Shown: piece after piece, positions 10,837-24,677 of the stretch
Numbering within the stretch: position 1 is the stretch's first letter
Layout of the letters: each line of letters starts with the position of its first letter
Source: Terriglobales bacterium
GTDB taxonomy: Bacteria; Acidobacteriota; Terriglobia; Terriglobales; Acidobacteriaceae
Direction: 5' to 3'
DNA length: 64,000 bases
Assembly (NCBI GenBank): GCA_015655585.1
Contig: JAATEV010000024.1
Span: 1 to 64,000 of the forward strand
Made by a program: the position numbers and the translations under genes
Notes under the pieces: model-generated
Told to the model about the DNA's origin: nothing
Database searches by the model: none
The model's input: only the letters and a program-made list of their open reading frames with translations

Positions 10837-11994
10837 CTAAAAGAGCAGTGGGGCGAAGTCGCGAAGATAGCGGCGCCACACGATCCAGGTGTGGGCCCCC
10901 TCGCTGGTTTGATAGCTGTGCTTGATTTTTGCGGCGGTGAGGAACTTCGATAGAGCTTCGTCGGCGGTCAGGAAGCCGTCGTCGCGGCCTACGGCGAGCC
11001 AGAGCAGATGCAGCTTCTGATTGACCTGCTGAGGATTGGCCGCGAGTGCGCCGAAGTCCCTGGTGAAGTCGGCGGGACGCACGGCGGCGCTGAAGCCGCC
11101 GACGTAGCTGAAGAGGTCGAGATGGTTGAGACCGATGGTGAGGGACTCGACACCGCCCATGGAGAGACCGGCGAGTGCGCGGTGGTCGCGATCCTTGTAG
11201 ACGGGGAAGCGGGCTTCGACGTAGGGGATGACGTCGCCGAGGAGGTCTTTGCCGAAGGCGGCGGCGATGCTGTCGAAGCTGCCGTCGAAGAGCTCGGTGC
11301 CGGGAGGCGCGCCGTAGCCGAAGGGCATGACGACGATGAAGGGCTTGATTTTCTTTTCGGCGAGGAGATTGTCGAGGATGTGGTTGACGTGCCCGAGTTT
11401 GGTCCAGGCGGATTCGTCAGCGTTTGCGCCGTGCAGGAGATAGAGCGTGGGATATTTTGTGCGGCCGCTGGCGTCGTAGCCGGGAGGCGTGTAGATCGTC
11501 ATGCGGCGAATCTCGTTGAGCGACTTCGATTCGTACCAGATGGTGTGGATCTGGCCGTGCGGCACACGGCGGGCATCGTAGAAGGCTGGCGTGTCGCCGT
11601 GAACTTCGAGCAGGCTCTGGATGGTTGCGGAGGTGGAGCCGGTCTTGAGGGCAGGGTTGCCGGGGTCGATGGTCTTTACGCCGTCGATGGTGAGGTTGTA
11701 GTTGTAGATCTCGGGCGGCAGGGGATCGGTGGTGACGCTCCAGACTCCGGCGGCGTCTCTGGTGAGTGGTTTGCTGCCTTGCATGAACTCGCCGGTGAGC
11801 GTGACCTCAGTTGCTTTCGGAGCGCGAAGGCGGAAGGTGACTCGCCGGTCGGGGCCGACCTCGGGAGATTTCAGGGGCCGTTCGGCAGGCGCTCTGAGCG
11901 CGGACGGAGCCGCAGGTTGCGAGACCTGGGCTCCGCCGCGTGAAGAGAGAGCTGCACAGAAGAGCAGCAGTGTTGTTTGCTTCGTCAATTGCAT
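10837..11994 (-). CDS. Secreted CE1-like esterase (enterochelin-esterase / feruloyl-esterase fold)
   Basis: A 385-residue alpha/beta-hydrolase with a cleavable signal peptide (MQLTKQTTLLLFCAALSSRG). Residues about 40-125 form an early-set/CBM48-like domain (RRVTFRLRAPKATEVTLTGE...), as found in Fes-type esterases. The hydrolase domain carries YLLHGANADESAW (oxyanion region), the nucleophile elbow ALAGLSMGG with Ser near residue 276, an acidic residue in AVGRDDGF and the terminal histidine in SEGAHTWIVWRRYLRDF. In a pectin locus it probably removes acetyl or feruloyl groups, which is inference. Its start is 3 bases after the TonB receptor stop, so the two are co-transcribed. Confidence 0.88.
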   Translation of the reverse strand: MQLTKQTTLLLFCAALSSRGGAQVSQPAAPSALRAPAERPLKSPEVGPDRRVTFRLRAPKATEVTLTGEFMQGSKPLTRDAAGVWSVTTDPLPPEIYNYNLTIDGVKTIDPGNPALKTGSTSATIQSLLEVHGDTPAFYDARRVPHGQIHTIWYESKSLNEIRRMTIYTPPGYDASGRTKYPTLYLLHGANADESAWTKLGHVNHILDNLLAEKKIKPFIVVMPFGYGAPPGTELFDGSFDSIAAAFGKDLLGDVIPYVEARFPVYKDRDHRALAGLSMGGVESLTIGLNHLDLFSYVGGFSAAVRPADFTRDFGALAANPQQVNQKLHLLWLAVGRDDGFLTADEALSKFLTAAKIKHSYQTSEGAHTWIVWRRYLRDFAPLLF

Positions 11995-11997
11995 CCC

Positions 11998-14900
11998 CTA
12001 GAACGTGAACTTGACTGCGCCCTGGAAGATTCGTGGATTGCTGCCGGAAGCAATCGCGGTGATCTTGCCGAAGGTGGAGGAGTTCAGCGCGAGGCTGCTG
12101 GGATTGGCGAAGTTGGGATGGTTGGGGACGTTGAATGCCTCAAGCCGTAGAACCATCGCAAACCGATCACGGAGCGGGAAGGTGCGGCTGAGGGACGCGT
12201 CGAGCTGGAAGTACTTGGGGCCCATGAAGGCATTGCGCCCAAGGTTTCCGTATGTGCCAATCGCATTCGTGGTGAAGGCGGAGGCGTTGATGTAGACGGA
12301 GCTGTTGTTGGCGTTCGCCTGGGTTGGCCGGGTGTAGGTATAGACCTTTGCACCACCGGCTATGTTGGGACGATCGTTGTTCACATCGGTGAGGGAGTTA
12401 TCCAGACCCGAGGTGACGTTGAACGGAGCGCCGCTGGTGATGCGAAGCAGAGGAGCGATCTGCCAGTGATTGATCACGTAGCCCTTCCAGCCGGTGAGGC
12501 CGAACTTGCTCTCGGCCACCAGCGAGCTGTTGACCATGTGACGGCGATCGAATCCGCAGTTCGCCATATCGGCGCGGATGTTATTGGGATTCTCGACGGC
12601 GGTGCTGTTGAAGGCACCGGGGTTGTCCTGGATGTCGAGGCAGTGCGACCAGGTGTAGTTGGCGAGGAAGACGAAGCTGGAGGTCATGCGGTGCTGGATG
12701 GTTGCCACCAGCGCGTTGTAGTGAGCAGTTGCGCCCGGAACCATGGTGACCGTACCGGCTCCGCCACCCAGATACTTGACGCCCTGAGTTGGATTCAGAG
12801 TGGACAGCAGGAAGCGGTTGGCCTGGTTGCCGGTGCTGGAGCAGGGGCTTCCGGCGGCTGGTGCGGTCACGATCGAGCCGCAGGAGCCGGGGCCGGAGGA
12901 GATGCCAGGGATGTAGACGGCCGGGTTCAGAGGGTATCCATAGGCCGAGTGGGTCGTCTTGTTGCCGATATAGTCGATCTGGAACTGCCATCCGCGGGGC
13001 AGCTCATGCTGCACGCTGGCGGTCCACTGCAGGACATAGGGAGAGAGGAACTTCTTGGGATAGACGATGTACTGGCTCTGGTTGCTGAAGGTGGTGGTGG
13101 AGGGCGGCGTGAACGGCTGCGGGAACGGATTGCCCGGTGTGGTGCCGCCGGCCCATGGGCTTGCGAAGCTCAACGGGCCACTGGAGGTTGCGCTGTTGGT
13201 GACCTGGGTGGAGAACGGTGGGTTCTGGCCGGTCTCCGAGGCGGCGAAGAAGTTGGTCTCGTCGTAGACCAGCGAGGTGCCGACGCGGAATACGGTCTTG
13301 CCGTCGCCGACGGGATCGTAGGTCATGCCGAAGCGAGGAGAGAACTGCGCGATGGAGTTCTCGGTGAAGTTCTTCCGCACGCCGGGGTCGCCGTAGAAGA
13401 AGGCTCCGGCAGGAGCATTCGGGAAGACGGTGCTGTGCTGGTTTCCGAGGAATGCAGCCATGTCGAAGGTCGAGCCGCGGCCGAAGTAGTCGGTCGGCGT
13501 GTACTCGGGCCCCCAGCGCAGACCGCCGGAGATCACGAACCTCGTGTTCACATGATAGGTGTCCTGTATGTAGAGGCTGGGGACAGGAGCGCGGAGAGCG
13601 TTCTGCTGGGCCTTGCTCTGGGCAAAGCTGGGCATTGCGCCGATGAGGAAGTCGAGGTTGGCATCGGCGCCGGTGCCGCCGGGGCTGGTGCCGCCGGGGC
13701 CCTTCTGGCTATAGATACCGGTGAAGTTGAAGGTTCCGTTGGAGGTGAAGGCGTTGTTGACGTTGAGCTGGGCACGGACAAACTCGCCGCCGAAGACGAG
13801 CTGATGCTTGCCGAAGACCACGTTGACGTCGTCGGCTACAGCGAAGGCGTTCACGTTGAACTCTCCGGCTGCGCAGGTGCTGCAATAGGTGGTGAACTTG
13901 CCGCCCTGCACACGCAGGCCGACCGGAACAGGCTGGTAGACGTTGACGCCGAGCGTGGTGGCATTGATGCCGTCCGCTGCCGCGCCGCGCGTATTGGTTC
14001 TGCGAGTCGCCGTCAGGTGTAGCGAGTTGACGATGCGCGAGCTGATTGTCCAGGTCTCGCCGATGGTGAGGGTCTGGGCACGCTCCGTGTTGCCGGGGTT
14101 CTGCGTGAGCAGAATATTGGTGGGCGAGAAGTACGCCGGGGTCTGGTAGCCGTCGATGAAGTAACGGCCATAGATGCTGTGCTTCGGCGTGAGCGTCGCG
14201 TCGATGCGGGTGATGAACTGATTCTCGGTCTGCTGGACCGGGATCGAGTAGAAGACGATGCCGCAGGGGTCGGCGGTGGCAGGAAGATACTTCTGCAGCG
14301 CGAGCGAGGGAGCGGAATAGGGGTAGAGGTTGGTATCGATTTTGTTGCCCGGCAGGATCGCGCCCGTCAGCGGATTCAGGAGCTGGATGTTCTGCTTGTT
14401 CGAGGTGCAGGTGGGGCCGTCAGTCACGGAGAAGTCGCCGAGCATGTTGGCCGCTGTGGGAACCTGCGCCTGGCTGGATGCGGAGCTGGCAGAAGAGTTC
14501 AGGCGCTGATATCCGGCGAAGAAGAACAGGCGATCACGAATGACTCTGCCGCCGAAGGTGCCGCCGAACTGGTTCTGGTGCAGTGTGTCCTTGGTCTGCG
14601 AAAAGAAGCTGGACGCGTTGATGAAGTTGTTGCGGATGAACTCGAAGGCGGTTCCATGCCACTCGTTCGAACCGGAGCGCGTTACGACGTTTACGAGACC
14701 GGCCGGGTGAAGACCGCTCTGCGCGCCGAGCGCCGTGGTCTCGACGCTGAACTGCGCTACGGCATCGGGGAAGGGGAAGGCAAAGCTGGTGTTGGACTCA
14801 TAGTCATTGTTGTCGCCGCCGTCGAGACGGTAGTCGGTCTGGTTGCCCTGGCCACCGGCGATCTGCGGAGAGACGGAGCTCCAGAAGCCCTTGTTTCCCT

Positions 14901-18649: not shown

Positions 18650-18847
18650 ATGTCGAAACTACATCTGTTATTGGACACTCTGATTGCTGATGACTCAGGT
18701 CAAGATCTTATCGAATACGCTCTGGTAGCAGGACTGGTAGGTCTTGTTGCTACCGCAGGTATTCCTGCCGTTACGACCGCCATCTCGGCTGTTTTTAGCG
18801 CCATTACCACCAAGCTGAACACCGCCGCCGGAGTTACTCCTGGCTAA
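18650..18847 (+). CDS. flp: Flp/Fap-type pilin subunit
   Basis: A 65-residue prepilin. The leader MSKLHLLLDTLIADDSG is followed by QDLIEYALVAGLVGLVATAG, the Flp signature in which prepilin peptidase cuts after the glycine and the Glu at position +4 and Tyr at +5 are conserved, followed by a hydrophobic alpha-helix. It is the major pilin of a Tad secretion/pilus system and is assembled at the inner membrane. It precedes cpaA with a strong hairpin in between, which would favour high pilin expression relative to the assembly genes. Length is normal for the family (about 50-70). Confidence 0.95.
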   Translation: MSKLHLLLDTLIADDSGQDLIEYALVAGLVGLVATAGIPAVTTAISAVFSAITTKLNTAAGVTPG

Positions 18848-18850
18848 TGG

Positions 18851-18887
18851 AACGAGGAGGGGGCCCGGCGCTGGAGGCCCCCTCGTT
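18851..18887 (+). terminator. Hairpin after flp (attenuating terminator)
   Basis: AGGGGGCC and GGCCCCCT form an 8-bp GC-rich stem with a 9-base loop just 10 bases after the flp stop, extended by AACG/CGTT outside a small bulge. Only a weak GTTGTG follows instead of a long U-tract, so partial read-through into cpaA is likely. Confidence 0.6.
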
Positions 18888-19024
18888 GTGTCGGTTGAAT
18901 CGGGAACAAACTTGATTGTTATCGCGTAACGGAAACGTCTGTTACGCGTGTCTGGTTTTTTGCGAGCTCTGGAGCAATGCGTTCAGAGCGAAGCTTGTAC
19001 TTTTTATCTCCCTGGGGTTCTCAG

Positions 19025-19570
19025 ATGCAAACGGATATAGGAACGCTTTATTGCGCGATAGCTTCCTTTATTGCAATTCTCGCGGCTGGCTGCGATATAA
19101 GAAGCCGCAGGATACCGAACGCACTGGTTGGTCCCGCGCTTGCGCTTGGGCTATCGCTTCATCTTGCGATGGATGGATGGCGCGGACTGCTGTCGTCGTT
19201 TGCTGCCGTATGCATTGCGGGCGGAATCTTCCTGATATTTTTTATCGCCGGTGGCATGGGTGGGGGCGATGTAAAGCTGATCGCCGCGCTGGCGTCGATC
19301 GTTGGCTTGGGCTATACGGGCTATCTTCTGGTATTCACGGCGCTGGCTGGCGGAGTGATGGGAGTAGGACTCGCGCTTCTGCATGGGCAACTGCGGCAGA
19401 CCTTCTTCAATATGTCCGCTCTCGCGAGTCATCATCGCCATCAGGGTTTGTCTCCACACCCCGACCTGAACATTAAGAATATCCATACCTTGCGTCTTCC
19501 CTATGGCGTTGCGATTGCTATTGGCAGTCTGCTGACGCTTTATCTGCATACAACCCAGGGAGGACTGTAA
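19025..19570 (+). CDS. cpaA: Prepilin peptidase of the Tad system (CpaA/TadV, A24 family)
   Basis: An integral membrane aspartyl protease that processes Flp and the TadE/TadG pseudopilins. The two catalytic aspartate motifs are present: CDIRSRRIPN near the N-terminus and GGMGGGDVKL in the middle. About five or six membrane helices follow the usual short CpaA form without the methyltransferase domain. I prefer the ATG at 19025 (MQTDIGTLYCAIASF) because the first helix then starts close to the N-terminus; the ORF track's ATG at 18977 would add 16 residues. The stop overlaps the cpaB start by one base (TAATG). Confidence 0.92.
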   Translation: MQTDIGTLYCAIASFIAILAAGCDIRSRRIPNALVGPALALGLSLHLAMDGWRGLLSSFAAVCIAGGIFLIFFIAGGMGGGDVKLIAALASIVGLGYTGYLLVFTALAGGVMGVGLALLHGQLRQTFFNMSALASHHRHQGLSPHPDLNIKNIHTLRLPYGVAIAIGSLLTLYLHTTQGGL

Positions 19571-20469
19571 TGGTTCGCCGTCTTATCATTGCGCTGATCG
19601 TCGCGATCAGCATCTCGGGATTGATTACGTTCGGGATGAGCCGCAGGTTCGGCAGGCCGCATCTGCCTGCGCCGTCGAAGCTTCAGTACGTGGCTACGTC
19701 GAAGAAGATGGAAGCGGGAGAGGTGCTGAGGCTGGAGGATCTGAAGAAGATCGGCTGGCCGAGCTCGGTGCCGCTCGAAGGATCGTTCACGCGGCCGGAG
19801 GATCTGGTCGGTCGCACGCTGCTCTATCCGCTGGCGGGAAATGAGCCAATTCTGAATCAGCAGCTATCTGCTCCGGGGCTTGGTCCGGGGCTTTCGCCGA
19901 AGATTCCCGATGGGATGAGAGCGCTCTCCTTGAAGTCGGACCAGGTTGTGGGGGTCGCGGGATTTCTGCTCCCCGGCACGCATGTCGATGTTCTGGTTAC
20001 ATACCGCGCGCCGTCTTCGTCGGACCCGGTGACTGCGATTGTCTTGCAGGATGCACAGATCCTGACCGCCGGGCAGAAGATGCAGCCTGATCCTGATGGC
20101 AAGGCGACGACGGTGGATGTGGTAACAATTCTGGTCGCTCCGCAGGACGCGGAGAAGGTTGTTCTGGCCAGCGCGCAGGGAACGGTCCACTTTGTGCTGA
20201 GAAATGGATCGGACCATGCGCATCTTGATGACAAGCCGGTGCAGCTCTCCTCGCTCAATGTGTTTGCGGAGACTCGCGGCCTTCGATGCGGCGCTTCCCG
20301 ACTGTATCGAACTGTGCGCCCGCGCTCTTCGCGCCGGGCATTCGATTGTCGCGGCAATCGATATGGTGGCGGTTCAGGCTCTGGAGCCGGCGAAGACGGA
20401 GTTTACGGAGGTCTTCAAGAAGCAGAACTACGGCCTTCCCCTGCGCGATGCTCTGCTGCAGATGCTTGA
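19570..20469 (+). pseudogene. cpaB: CpaB/RcpC-like pilus protein with an out-of-frame, non-native C-terminus
   Basis: CpaB is a periplasmic SAF-domain protein thought to stabilise the Tad secretin. The N-terminal membrane anchor (LIIALIVAISISGLITFGM), the SAF region (YVATSKKMEAGEVLRLEDLK) and the RcpC core (VGVAGFLLPGTHVDVLVTY, VDVVTILVAPQDAEKVVLAS, VHFVLRN) are intact up to about LSSLNVFAE (residue 235). After that the frame reads RGLRCGASRLYRTVRPRSSR and so on. This is tadB sequence in the wrong frame, so the last roughly 62 residues are junk and the normal C-terminal motif is lost. Seen in sequence: the join near 20260-20285. Inferred: a deletion fused cpaB to tadB. Confidence 0.8.
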
Positions 20470-20815
20470 GCGCGTTCCGTCGATGGATTTGCAGGTGATG
20501 GTGACGGGAATTCTGGTGCAGAAGGACACGGGCGGAAACCTGGCGGAGATCTTCGACCGCATTGTTACGCTGACACGTGAGAGGCTGCGTATTCAAAGGG
20601 AGATTCGCGTCCATACTGCACAGGGAAGACTTACCGGCTGGATACTTTGCCTGTTGCCAATCGCTCTTCTTCTGCTGATGAACCTTGTCAATCCCGGCTA
20701 CTCCGGCGTCTTCTTCCACGACCCGCGAGGGAAAAAGATGGTGTATGCAGGACTAGTCCTTCTGCTGATTGGAATCTTCTCGATCCGGCAGATCGTCAAC
20801 GGGGTGGAGGTCTAG
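20258..20815 (+). pseudogene. tadB: TadB, 5'-truncated inner-membrane pilus assembly protein
   Basis: The region from RRLAAFDAALPDCIELCARALRAGHS onward is a clear type II secretion F domain of TadB (LPDxxxLxARALRAGHS, FKKQNYGLPLRDALLQML, ILVQKDTGGNLAEIFD, IQREIRVHTAQGRLTGWIL) followed by two C-terminal helices. The usual N-terminal 100-130 residues with membrane helices are absent; only about 186 residues remain instead of about 310. The only in-frame ATGs upstream (20204, 20216, 20228 and 20258) lie within cpaB sequence. The C-terminus and stop are normal and the stop is 3 bases before tadC. Probably non-functional, unless a truncated product is still made from 20258. Confidence 0.8.
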
Positions 20816-20818
20816 AGG

Positions 20819-21721
20819 ATGCAGATACTCTTCTACACCGCGCTTGCTGTGACTGTCTTCTGTGCACTTGCGCTTCTCCTCGTCCCTATCCTCATGCGGC
20901 CTACGCGGGAGGCGCAGCGTCTTCTCGGAGTGGTTCGGAATACACGTCCGGATCAAAGAAAGATAAGTCGGCGTGAACGTGTTGAAGAGGGATTGCTTAC
21001 CGTGGCCCGCGATTTTCGCGCATGGCTGGGGATAACGGAGAGTACCAAGGTATCGGAGCTTATGGTCTCCGCGGGTATTCGCCGTGCGGAGTCTTCGGAC
21101 CTGTTTTTTGCGGCGCAGTGCCTTTTGCCGTTGCTCGGAGTCGTAGCGGGCAGCTTTGCCAGAAGCAATACTTTTTTCTGGATTACGCTCTTTGCCGCCG
21201 TTGGATATCTTCTGCCGAATACCTGGCTGAATTATAAGATCAGCCGGAGAAGAAAGAGGATATCGCGCGGTCTTCCGGATGCAATCGATCTTCTGGTGAT
21301 CTGCGTCGACGCAGGGCTGGGGCTCGATCAGGCTCTGCTGCGGGTAAGCGCGGAGATTGCGCTGAACCATCCCGATATTCAGGAAGAGTTCAACCGCGTG
21401 AACCTAGAGCAGCGCGCTGGAGTGTCGCGTCTGGAGGCCTTCCAGAATCTGGCGAACCGGACGAAGATTCCCGAGTTTGCAACCTTCGTCAGTATGTTGA
21501 CGCAGACTGACCGCTTTGGAACCCCGATCGTAAAGGCGCTAGGCCGCTACTCGGATGATCTTCGGCTGAAACGCAGGCAGAGCGCGGAGGAGGCAGCCGC
21601 AAAGACAAAGATAAAGATCGTATTCCCGCTCGTGTTCTGTATCTTCCCCTGTCTGTTTATTGTGTTGCTTGGCCCCGCCATTCTTAGCATTATCAGCACG
21701 CTTGGAGGACTTGGAAAGTAA
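20819..21721 (+). CDS. tadC: TadC, inner-membrane type II secretion F-domain protein of the Tad system
   Basis: A 300-residue membrane protein that partners TadB at the inner-membrane platform of the pilus machine. There are helices at the N-terminus (YTALAVTVFCALALLLVPIL), in the middle (LFFAAQCLLPLLGVVAGSF and a second one) and at the C-terminus (IVFPLVFCIFPCLFIVLLGP). The F domain reads LPDAIDLLVICVDAGLGLDQ, RAGVSRLEAFQNLANRT and FVSMLTQTDRFGTPIVKAL, which is typical TadC. It is full length and starts 3 bases after tadB with a GAGG ribosome site. Its intact state contrasts with the broken tadB. Confidence 0.93.
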   Translation: MQILFYTALAVTVFCALALLLVPILMRPTREAQRLLGVVRNTRPDQRKISRRERVEEGLLTVARDFRAWLGITESTKVSELMVSAGIRRAESSDLFFAAQCLLPLLGVVAGSFARSNTFFWITLFAAVGYLLPNTWLNYKISRRRKRISRGLPDAIDLLVICVDAGLGLDQALLRVSAEIALNHPDIQEEFNRVNLEQRAGVSRLEAFQNLANRTKIPEFATFVSMLTQTDRFGTPIVKALGRYSDDLRLKRRQSAEEAAAKTKIKIVFPLVFCIFPCLFIVLLGPAILSIISTLGGLGK

Positions 21722-21800
21722 CCCGGACTATCGATCCTGACTAACTCGATAGATAAATAAAATGCTGTAATTAACCTGATGGAAAGAAGGAGATAGCGTC

Positions 21801-21896
21801 ATGGAAACCACAACTCTTGTTCGTATCGTCGCAGGTGTACTGGCAGTCGCTGTACTTGCTCTGATCGTTTACCGCAGAAAGAACCATTCGGTTTAA
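21801..21896 (+). CDS. 31-residue single-pass membrane peptide in the Tad locus
   Basis: This short ORF is not in the track. It reads METTTLVRIVAGVLAVAVLA, then LIVYRRKNHSV and a stop: one hydrophobic helix of about 19 residues followed by a positively charged YRRKNHSV tail, so the N-terminus should face out. It is preceded by GAAAGAAGGAGATAGCGTC, where AAGGAG is a good ribosome-binding site about 8 bases from the ATG. It lies between tadC and the DUF192 gene. I do not recognise a family; a small structural or regulatory membrane peptide of the pilus locus is a guess. Confidence 0.6.
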   Translation: METTTLVRIVAGVLAVAVLALIVYRRKNHSV

Positions 21897-21922
21897 CCGC
21901 CGTTCGAGAGTACGAGAAGACG

Positions 21923-22291
21923 ATGCGCACGATAAGGATCATGGACGAGACTCGCGCCAGCGTGATCGGCGACCACGTCGAGGTGGCCGAGACATCGTTG
22001 CGGCGGCTCGTCGGTCTTCTTGGTCGGCGCGGCATCGAGCCGGGAGGGGGGCTGTGGATCAGGCCCTCCTCCGGTATTCATACTTTCGGTATGTCGTTTC
22101 CGATCGATGTAATCGGACTGGATAAGGAGCTGAACGTAGTCCGGCTCTGGAACCGCATCGTGCCGTATCGCATCACCGCGCTCAGTTGGAGAATGTGCAG
22201 TGCGCTGGAACTTCCCGCCGGACGCATCGCTGAAGCAGGCGTGCAGCTTGGGGATCGACTTCGCGTGGTTCCGGGAGCAAGCCATGAGTAG
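21923..22291 (+). CDS. DUF192 family protein
   Basis: A 122-residue protein with the DUF192 pattern: VAETSLRRLVGLLGRRGIEPG, GLWIRPSSGIHTFGMSFPID, VIGLDKELNVVRL and a C-terminal ALELPAGRIAEAGVQLGDRL. The FGMxFPID segment is the most diagnostic part. The family has no agreed biochemical function. No signal peptide is visible, in contrast to many exported DUF192 members. It overlaps the TadG-like gene by 8 bases (ATGAGTAG), so translation is probably coupled; DUF192 genes do occur within Tad loci of other bacteria. Confidence 0.88.
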   Translation: MRTIRIMDETRASVIGDHVEVAETSLRRLVGLLGRRGIEPGGGLWIRPSSGIHTFGMSFPIDVIGLDKELNVVRLWNRIVPYRITALSWRMCSALELPAGRIAEAGVQLGDRLRVVPGASHE

Positions 22292-23690
22292 GCTGCGGAT
22301 ACTTAGGGATGAAAGCGGCCAGGCCGTCATCGTCGTTGCGCTCTGCATGGTCGCACTGATGGGTTTCTTAGGGCTCGCCATCGATGTTGGCGTGCTGCGC
22401 TATGCGAAGCAGAATCTCCAGACCGCGGCCGATGCGGCGGCCCTTGCCGCGGGTATGGAGATACGTGTGTGCGGCTCACAGCCGAACTGTCCTGCGATGC
22501 AGGCGGCAGCACAGAAGGCGCTGGATGAAAATGGGCTGACGGGAAGCACGTTGATGACCGGCTGCGGCTCTTCCCCCGGAAGCGGTCTCACCTTGCAGAT
22601 CAACGATCCTCCCTGCGAGCTTGGAGCCGCAGATCCAAATACCGGACGAACAAATTTTGTCGAGGCGGTTGTGTCCCGCCGCGAACAGACTTACTTTGCG
22701 CGTTTTCTGGGTATCAATAACGTGATGCTCTCTGCGCGCGCCGAAGCGTCCAGAAATCCGAATGCACCCTGTATCTATGCTCTCGATCCCACCGGAGCAG
22801 GAGCTATCTCGGTCCTTGCGGCGGTCGGTCTGCAATCGAAGTGCGGCATCGTCGACGAATCGAACTCATCGGCGGCGCTCACATGCCTCGTCGGTCTGCT
22901 TGTCTCCGCACCCAAAATCGATGTTACCGGCGGCACCGCCGGGCTTTTGTGCGGCTCGACTCCTCCGCCCAGAACTCATGTCCCTGTGCCTGTCCCCGCA
23001 GACCCGCTTGCCTATCTTCCGCCGCCTCCCCATGCGAGCGATCCCTGCCCATCGAGTCCCGCTTCCGGTAATTCATATTCTGGCTCATCGCAGCAAGTGA
23101 ATGTTGGTCTCCTGGGCAACTATGTATTCAATCAGGGGATTTATTGCGGAGGGATCAGTATCACTGCGGCAGTCTTGATGAATGTAACGTTCAACCCTGG
23201 CATCTATATTCTGCGACAGGGACCAGGAGGGTTCCTGAATCTGAGTACGACCGGCGGCTTCAGTATTACGATCAGCGCTCTCTCCTCGATTACTGGTAAT
23301 GGGGTCCTCTTCTACAACCAGGGGTCAGCAGGAAACATCCCGGGGCAAGCAGGAGGTTTTTCGATCACGGCTCCGCTGTTGAGCAACATAAGCTTGTCGG
23401 CGGCGACAAGTGGAGAGTATGGAGGCGTCCTATTTATGCAGGCTCCGCAGAATACCTCGCCCGGGAGCTTTAATGCGAACCTCCCGCTAGGCAGCAAGCT
23501 GGAAGGAGCGATCTATCTTCCCAATGCGTCGGTTAGCTATGGAATCTCCGCCATATCATCCGCCTACAACATACTTGTCGCAAAGGACATTAACTTCGAT
23601 GTCCCGGTTCTCAGCAGGTTTGGCAATAACTACGCCACGCTGGAGAATGGTTCTCCTCTGAACGGAGACGATGCGGTGCTTGTGCAGTAA
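22284..23690 (+). CDS. TadG-like Flp pilus assembly protein with a long repetitive C-terminal domain
   Basis: A 468-residue protein. I choose the ATG at 22284, which overlaps the DUF192 stop, because it gives the proper pseudopilin-like start: DESGQAVIVVALCMVALMGF followed by LAIDVGVLRYAKQNLQTAADAAALAAG, the TadE/TadG-like N-terminal signature. The C-terminal 250 residues have repeated beta-rich phrases (GGFSITISALSSITGNG, GGFSITAPLLSNISLSA, NFDVPVLSRFGNNYA) that look like a beta-solenoid. Several cysteine pairs and a proline-rich linker (CGSTPPPRTHVPVPVPADPL) separate the halves. It has no von Willebrand A domain, unlike classical TadG. Probably located in the periplasm or outer surface of the Tad machine. 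Confidence 0.82.
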   Translation: MSRLRILRDESGQAVIVVALCMVALMGFLGLAIDVGVLRYAKQNLQTAADAAALAAGMEIRVCGSQPNCPAMQAAAQKALDENGLTGSTLMTGCGSSPGSGLTLQINDPPCELGAADPNTGRTNFVEAVVSRREQTYFARFLGINNVMLSARAEASRNPNAPCIYALDPTGAGAISVLAAVGLQSKCGIVDESNSSAALTCLVGLLVSAPKIDVTGGTAGLLCGSTPPPRTHVPVPVPADPLAYLPPPPHASDPCPSSPASGNSYSGSSQQVNVGLLGNYVFNQGIYCGGISITAAVLMNVTFNPGIYILRQGPGGFLNLSTTGGFSITISALSSITGNGVLFYNQGSAGNIPGQAGGFSITAPLLSNISLSAATSGEYGGVLFMQAPQNTSPGSFNANLPLGSKLEGAIYLPNASVSYGISAISSAYNILVAKDINFDVPVLSRFGNNYATLENGSPLNGDDAVLVQ

Positions 23691-23718
23691 GCCGTTCGAA
23701 GAAAGGAGATCGACATCA

Positions 23719-24168
23719 ATGCTATCGAGAGGAATACGCCGCAGGAGGGAAGAGGATGGCACCAGCATTCTTGAGACGGCGCTCGTGCTGCCTGTCCTGC
23801 TGCTGATGCTGGTAGGCGCAGTCGATCTAGGGCGAGCCTATTACACGGCGATCGAGGTAAACTCGGCGGCACACGCGGGCGCTATGTACGGCTCGCAAAA
23901 CGCCTCGGATGTGGCAGGGATGATTACTGCCGCGAATGCCGAGGCTCCCGATGTAGCTGGTCTGACTCCGACAGCAATGTATGGATGCGAATGTTCGGAC
24001 GGTTCAGGGATTTCGCCATCCTGCAGCTCGACACCCTCGTGTCCGTATAACACGGTGTACTACGTCGAGGTGGATACGACCGCCACCTATACGCCTCTCC
24101 TGTCGCTCTCCGGTGTCTTTGGCCCATTGAACCTTAAGTCCTCGGCGCGCATGAGGGCTACTTATTAG
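23719..24168 (+). CDS. TadE-like pseudopilin
   Basis: A 149-residue minor pseudopilin. The TadE signature is EEDGTSILETALVLPVLLLM followed by LVGAVDLGRAYYTAIEVNSAAHAGAMYGS, with the conserved Glu five residues after the processing glycine. The C-terminal half contains a short disulfide-rich loop (YGCECSDGSGISPSCSSTPSC) and a beta tail. I prefer the ATG at 23719, which follows AAAGGAGATCGACATCA; the ORF track's ATG at 23671 adds 16 residues of upstream sequence overlapping the TadG-like stop. It would be processed by CpaA. Confidence 0.88.
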   Translation: MLSRGIRRRREEDGTSILETALVLPVLLLMLVGAVDLGRAYYTAIEVNSAAHAGAMYGSQNASDVAGMITAANAEAPDVAGLTPTAMYGCECSDGSGISPSCSSTPSCPYNTVYYVEVDTTATYTPLLSLSGVFGPLNLKSSARMRATY

Positions 24169-24188
24169 ATCCAGGTCAGGAGGCTCGT

Positions 24189-24677
24189 ATGAGATTGAGA
24201 GATAGGCAACTCCTGTCGGCCGAAGGCGGAAGCACGATCATCGAGTTCGCCATGAGCCTTGTGGTGTTGCTCACCTTCATGTTTGGGATCTTCGACTGCT
24301 CGCTGCTGCTCTATGCCAACCACTACGTTACCAATGCCGCCCGGGACGCGGCCCGATACGCCATGGTGCGAGGCTCAACCTGGGGCGTCGCCTGTGCTAC
24401 TCCTGCCAGTTTTTCATGTACTGCGACAGGCCCCAATGTGACGAGCTATGTACAGAGCTCCATTTCTCCGATGATCGATGCCAGCCAGCTTACAGTAACT
24501 ACAGACTGGCTCCCTACGACCCCGGCAGGTGGCGCCTGCAATAACGTTTCGGGGAACAACAGTCCGACGTGCACGGTTCGTGTGAAGGTCAACTACACGT
24601 TCCACTTTCTTCTTCCATTTTTACCTGCGGACGCTCTTACCCTGAGCAGCACTTCAGTCACTGCCATTTTGCAATAA
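24189..24677 (+). CDS. Second TadE-like pseudopilin
   Basis: A 162-residue pseudopilin-like protein. It has SAEGGSTIIEFAMSLVVLLT followed by FMFGIFDCSLLLYANHYVTNAARDAARYAMVRGS, where the IIEF and NAARDAARYA elements are the TadE pattern. The mature domain has an internal cysteine set (ACATPASFSC, GGACNNVSGNNSPTC). It is the last intact gene of the Tad cluster, 20 bases after the first TadE gene. The downstream HicB-like gene is on the other strand and converges. Confidence 0.88.
   Translation: MRLRDRQLLSAEGGSTIIEFAMSLVVLLTFMFGIFDCSLLLYANHYVTNAARDAARYAMVRGSTWGVACATPASFSCTATGPNVTSYVQSSISPMIDASQLTVTTDWLPTTPAGGACNNVSGNNSPTCTVRVKVNYTFHFLLPFLPADALTLSSTSVTAILQ

Follow-up and report, generated by a model that had tools for sequence, protein, structure and literature searches.

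A cpaB-tadB join in the Tad pilus locus of an Acidobacteriaceae draft genome: a candidate recent loss of cpaC, tadZ and tadA

The Tad (type IVc) pilus loci of Acidobacteriaceae, such as that of Granulicella aggregans M8UP14 (L035) and the same-genus loci L024-L032, carry cpaA and cpaB, then 4.6-5.4 kb with cpaC, tadZ and tadA, followed by tadB, tadC and a DUF192 gene. The locus described here shares this gene order on both sides of a join, with about 48-66% protein identity to its relatives, whereas none of the three intervening genes is found between its cpaB and its tadB. Loss of tad genes is already known as a kind of event, and on the reading that we favour the present locus is a further example. 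In Actinobacillus pleuropneumoniae JL03 the flp operon is truncated, with flp1, flp2, tadV and most of rcpC gone (PMC2175527). Both cases have in common that several tad genes are taken, that rcpC/cpaB is cut and that the rest is left intact. They differ in the part affected: JL03 lost the 5′ end of the locus and kept the ATPase genes (PMC2175527), whereas the present locus lacks its middle.

The stretch of DNA that was analysed (the window; 64,000 bases) covers positions 1-64000 of a contig of 100,042 bases from the draft genome of a soil bacterium. This draft amounts to 3.12 Mb in 122 contigs, with an estimated completeness of 74.7% and a contamination of 3.2%. The pilus genes of the window all lie on the + strand. 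A putative Flp-type major pilin of 65 aa, unnamed in the original prediction, is encoded upstream of cpaA (18650..18847) by an ORF with an SGQDLIEYAL processing region; its Pfam Flp_Fap match (E 5.7e-5, 23.3 bits) is under the curated cut-off of 32.2, and its sequence is typical of Flp. The cpaA/tadV prepilin peptidase gene (18977..19570) is intact, as its product scores above the cut-off for Peptidase_A24 (57 bits) and resembles the proteins of relatives along its full length. The truncated cpaB/rcpC (19570..20256) consists of the first 229 codons, with SAF and RcpC domains. CpaB of relatives extends about 35-55 residues past the LSSL at which the similarity ends, so the protein is not full-length. 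Likewise, the tadB remnant (20267..20815) encodes the T2SSF domain (66.9 bits) and the C-terminus and lacks its own start and about 140 N-terminal residues. The tadC gene (20819..21721; T2SSF, 68.4 bits) is intact, and its product is 54-61% identical to that of the closest relatives over the whole length. It is followed, as in relatives, by the DUF192 gene (21923..22291), and then by genes for a TadG-like protein with Tad and Tad_C domains (22200..23690; homologue at 11415-12854 in locus L029) and for two TadE-like pseudopilins (23671..24168 and 24189..24677), both above the Pfam TadE cut-off (48.9 and 55.5 bits). The expectation that tadC, cpaA and three pseudopilins are intact was thus upheld for tadC and cpaA by Pfam, with two TadE-like pseudopilins and a TadG-like protein in place of the three pseudopilins. 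Between tadC and the DUF192 gene, a small ORF (21801-21896; 31 aa) contains a single hydrophobic segment (METTTLVRIVAGVLAVAVLALIVYRRKNHSV). Third-position GC is lower in the Tad locus (18650-24677; 0.45-0.70) than in the surrounding genes (mostly 0.70-0.83).

The predicted joining of cpaB to the middle of tadB at 20240-20300 was confirmed, with the breakpoint within 20257-20266, the early part of that range. The cpaB frame, which begins at 19570, had been read as intact to about LSSLNVFAE; it is CpaB-like through LSSL (residue 229), where homology ends at 20256. TadB homology begins at RRLAAFDAALPDC, 20267, in a different frame, and continues to 20815, in agreement with the predicted TadB F domain, the alignment of which with relatives starts at RRLAAFDA. 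The ten bases of the junction (20257..20266; AATGTGTTTG) belong to neither gene. Past the join, the cpaB frame runs out of frame over tadB sequence (20257..20469, + strand) and yields 70 meaningless codons before the stop at 20469. In protein searches, the CpaB matches of close relatives stop at residue 229-236 and nearly all TadB matches set in at residue 4 or 5 of the query. At the DNA level, 168 of the 398 family genomes searched showed similarity to the locus, and the matches listed end at or before 20256 on the cpaB side and start at or after 20266 on the tadB side; none of the listed DNA or protein matches spans the join. With about ten unassigned bases at most, an insertion element at this position was rejected.

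We compared the join with nine loci of the same genus and with wider Acidobacteriaceae loci from the GTDB collection. The two equivalent points are 4638-5336 bp apart in all nine same-genus loci. In those of L034-L056 that are of this locus type and have cpaB and tadB on a single contig, the spacing is 4592-5336 bp, with cpaC, tadZ and tadA between. Additionally, about 30 family genomes, counted by eye among the matches listed, have paired DNA matches ~4.6-5.5 kb apart. In locus L029 the interval holds the end of cpaB, cpaC (483 aa), tadZ (407 aa), tadA (449 aa) and the start of tadB. Compared with its relatives, the locus therefore shows a multi-kilobase gap, and the fused cpaB-tadB form was seen neither in the wider Acidobacteriaceae loci nor among the DNA matches listed from the 398 family genomes. 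Consistent with the original prediction, cpaC, cpaE/tadZ, cpaF/tadA, the 3′ end of cpaB and the 5′ end of tadB are absent from the window. Both flanks match one locus type at similar identity (57-66%), and a chimera of two different tad loci was rejected for this reason. One of the loci compared, L039 (JANXWZ010000211.1), comes from a MAG record titled Rhodanobacteraceae (Gammaproteobacteria) and bears an Acidobacteriaceae-type tad locus; the name is probably wrong.

We consider a real, recent and inactivating deletion to be the most likely origin of the join, and give it an even chance. Starting from a Tad pilus locus in the usual Acidobacteriaceae arrangement, the sequenced lineage would have lost about 4.7 kb in a single piece, reaching from cpaB codon 230 to about tadB codon 140 and including cpaC, tadZ and tadA. 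The simple join without an inserted element would fit an illegitimate or microhomology-type deletion. Given the known roles of the missing parts, no pilus would be expected from a locus that lacks the TadA motor, the CpaC secretin, TadZ and the TadB N-terminus, barring help from another locus. In Caulobacter, CpaF/TadA is essential for Tad function, as pilus-dependent infection by phage is lost in the deletion mutant and regained on complementation (PMC11300603). Against the deletion counts that the join is known from one assembly only, that this draft, with the completeness and contamination given above, is probably mixed, and that the species' own pre-deletion sequence may have had a longer local repeat. 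The original prediction had named a deletion, a complementing copy elsewhere and an assembly collapse. The multi-kilobase gap itself stands, no complementing copy was found in the draft, and we rank the deletion ahead of the assembly artefact.

If the deletion is real, it should be young. No stop codon was found in the 5295 bp of remaining coding sequence. Since 2.3-2.7% of random point changes give a stop, neutral change after inactivation should affect no more than about 2.1-2.5% of sites (95% bound), a figure that ignores indels and any function still retained. Departures from residues shared by all other loci number 6 in cpaB (1-6 in the others), 4 in tadB (1-8) and 5 in tadC (2-9); as judged from these sequences, the remaining locus is no more divergent than in intact relatives. 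An old pseudogene was rejected because the remaining genes are without decay. Intact frames and normal conservation together imply either a recent loss or none at all, and so support the recency proposed originally for a deletion that is real. Relatives with the same fused gene had been named as possible evidence against a recent loss; none carries it, which also favours recency.

The alternative that survives best is an assembly artefact, to which we assign a little less than an even chance. In this case the organism would have a complete locus, and the assembler would have skipped about 4.7 kb in passing from cpaB to tadB, as a result of strain variation, low coverage or a chimeric read. The join is unique to the window's assembly, and the remaining genes are conserved as in a working locus. 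The incompleteness and the probable mixing of the draft point the same way. A PF00263 search found no secretin of any kind in it, whereas each of the 13 relatives tested has at least two, even where the genome gave no match to the window's TadC. The draft thus lacks parts that it ought to have, which suggests that much is missing for technical reasons. Two pilB fragments (C62:1-266 and C67:40137-40402; L001, L002), each at the end of a contig, are 90% identical in DNA over an overlap of 266 bp; this difference of 10% suggests a mixed bin, or else paralogues or two pilB copies. On the other hand, the longest exact match between the two regions in relatives is 6-9 bases, too short for the usual k-mer collapse, which argues against a collapsed repeat. 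Ordinary short-insert scaffolding does not reach across 4.7 kb either, and the join contains no Ns. As contigs down to 2432 bases (2.43 kb) were binned, the missing 4.7 kb could have been retained as a contig of its own, yet no Tad ATPase or secretin was found. The window's other large genes look full-length by Pfam. If the join is an artefact after all, the gene content of this draft would be unsafe for inferring the absence of pilus genes.

It seems very unlikely that the locus is cut and that a second Tad locus, situated elsewhere in the genome, serves the pilus in trans. In several relatives there are indeed at least two TadC genes, located in separate loci, and a quarter of the draft genome is missing; owing to this incompleteness, the absence of Tad genes elsewhere is uninformative. 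Within the draft, however, the search for tadA, tadZ and secretin genes suggested originally found no Tad-type copy. The matches to PF00437 were rejected as Tad ATPases, being the two PilB fragments and a chance match to a ClpB-type AAA protein. For TadZ/CpaE, the draft gave only a remote match (26% identity) on another contig. We rejected a second locus on these grounds, together with the single tadC and the lack of a secretin. Finally, an old rearrangement that was selected and gained a new function is hardly credible as the origin of the fused form: the remaining genes are indeed conserved, but the form occurs in no relative, and the join shifts the frame, leaving CpaB with a meaningless tail and TadB without a normal start.

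Returning to the deletion, its reality would add one to the cases in which Tad pili were lost recently, here with breakpoints located to within ten bases. Whether the Tad locus is kept varies among species of the genus, which fits repeated loss. We regard it as rather unlikely that a Tad-minus deletion variant is sweeping through a wild population, or segregating in it, and was sampled shortly after it arose. If this were true, the loss of a surface-attachment system would be watchable at the level of reads.
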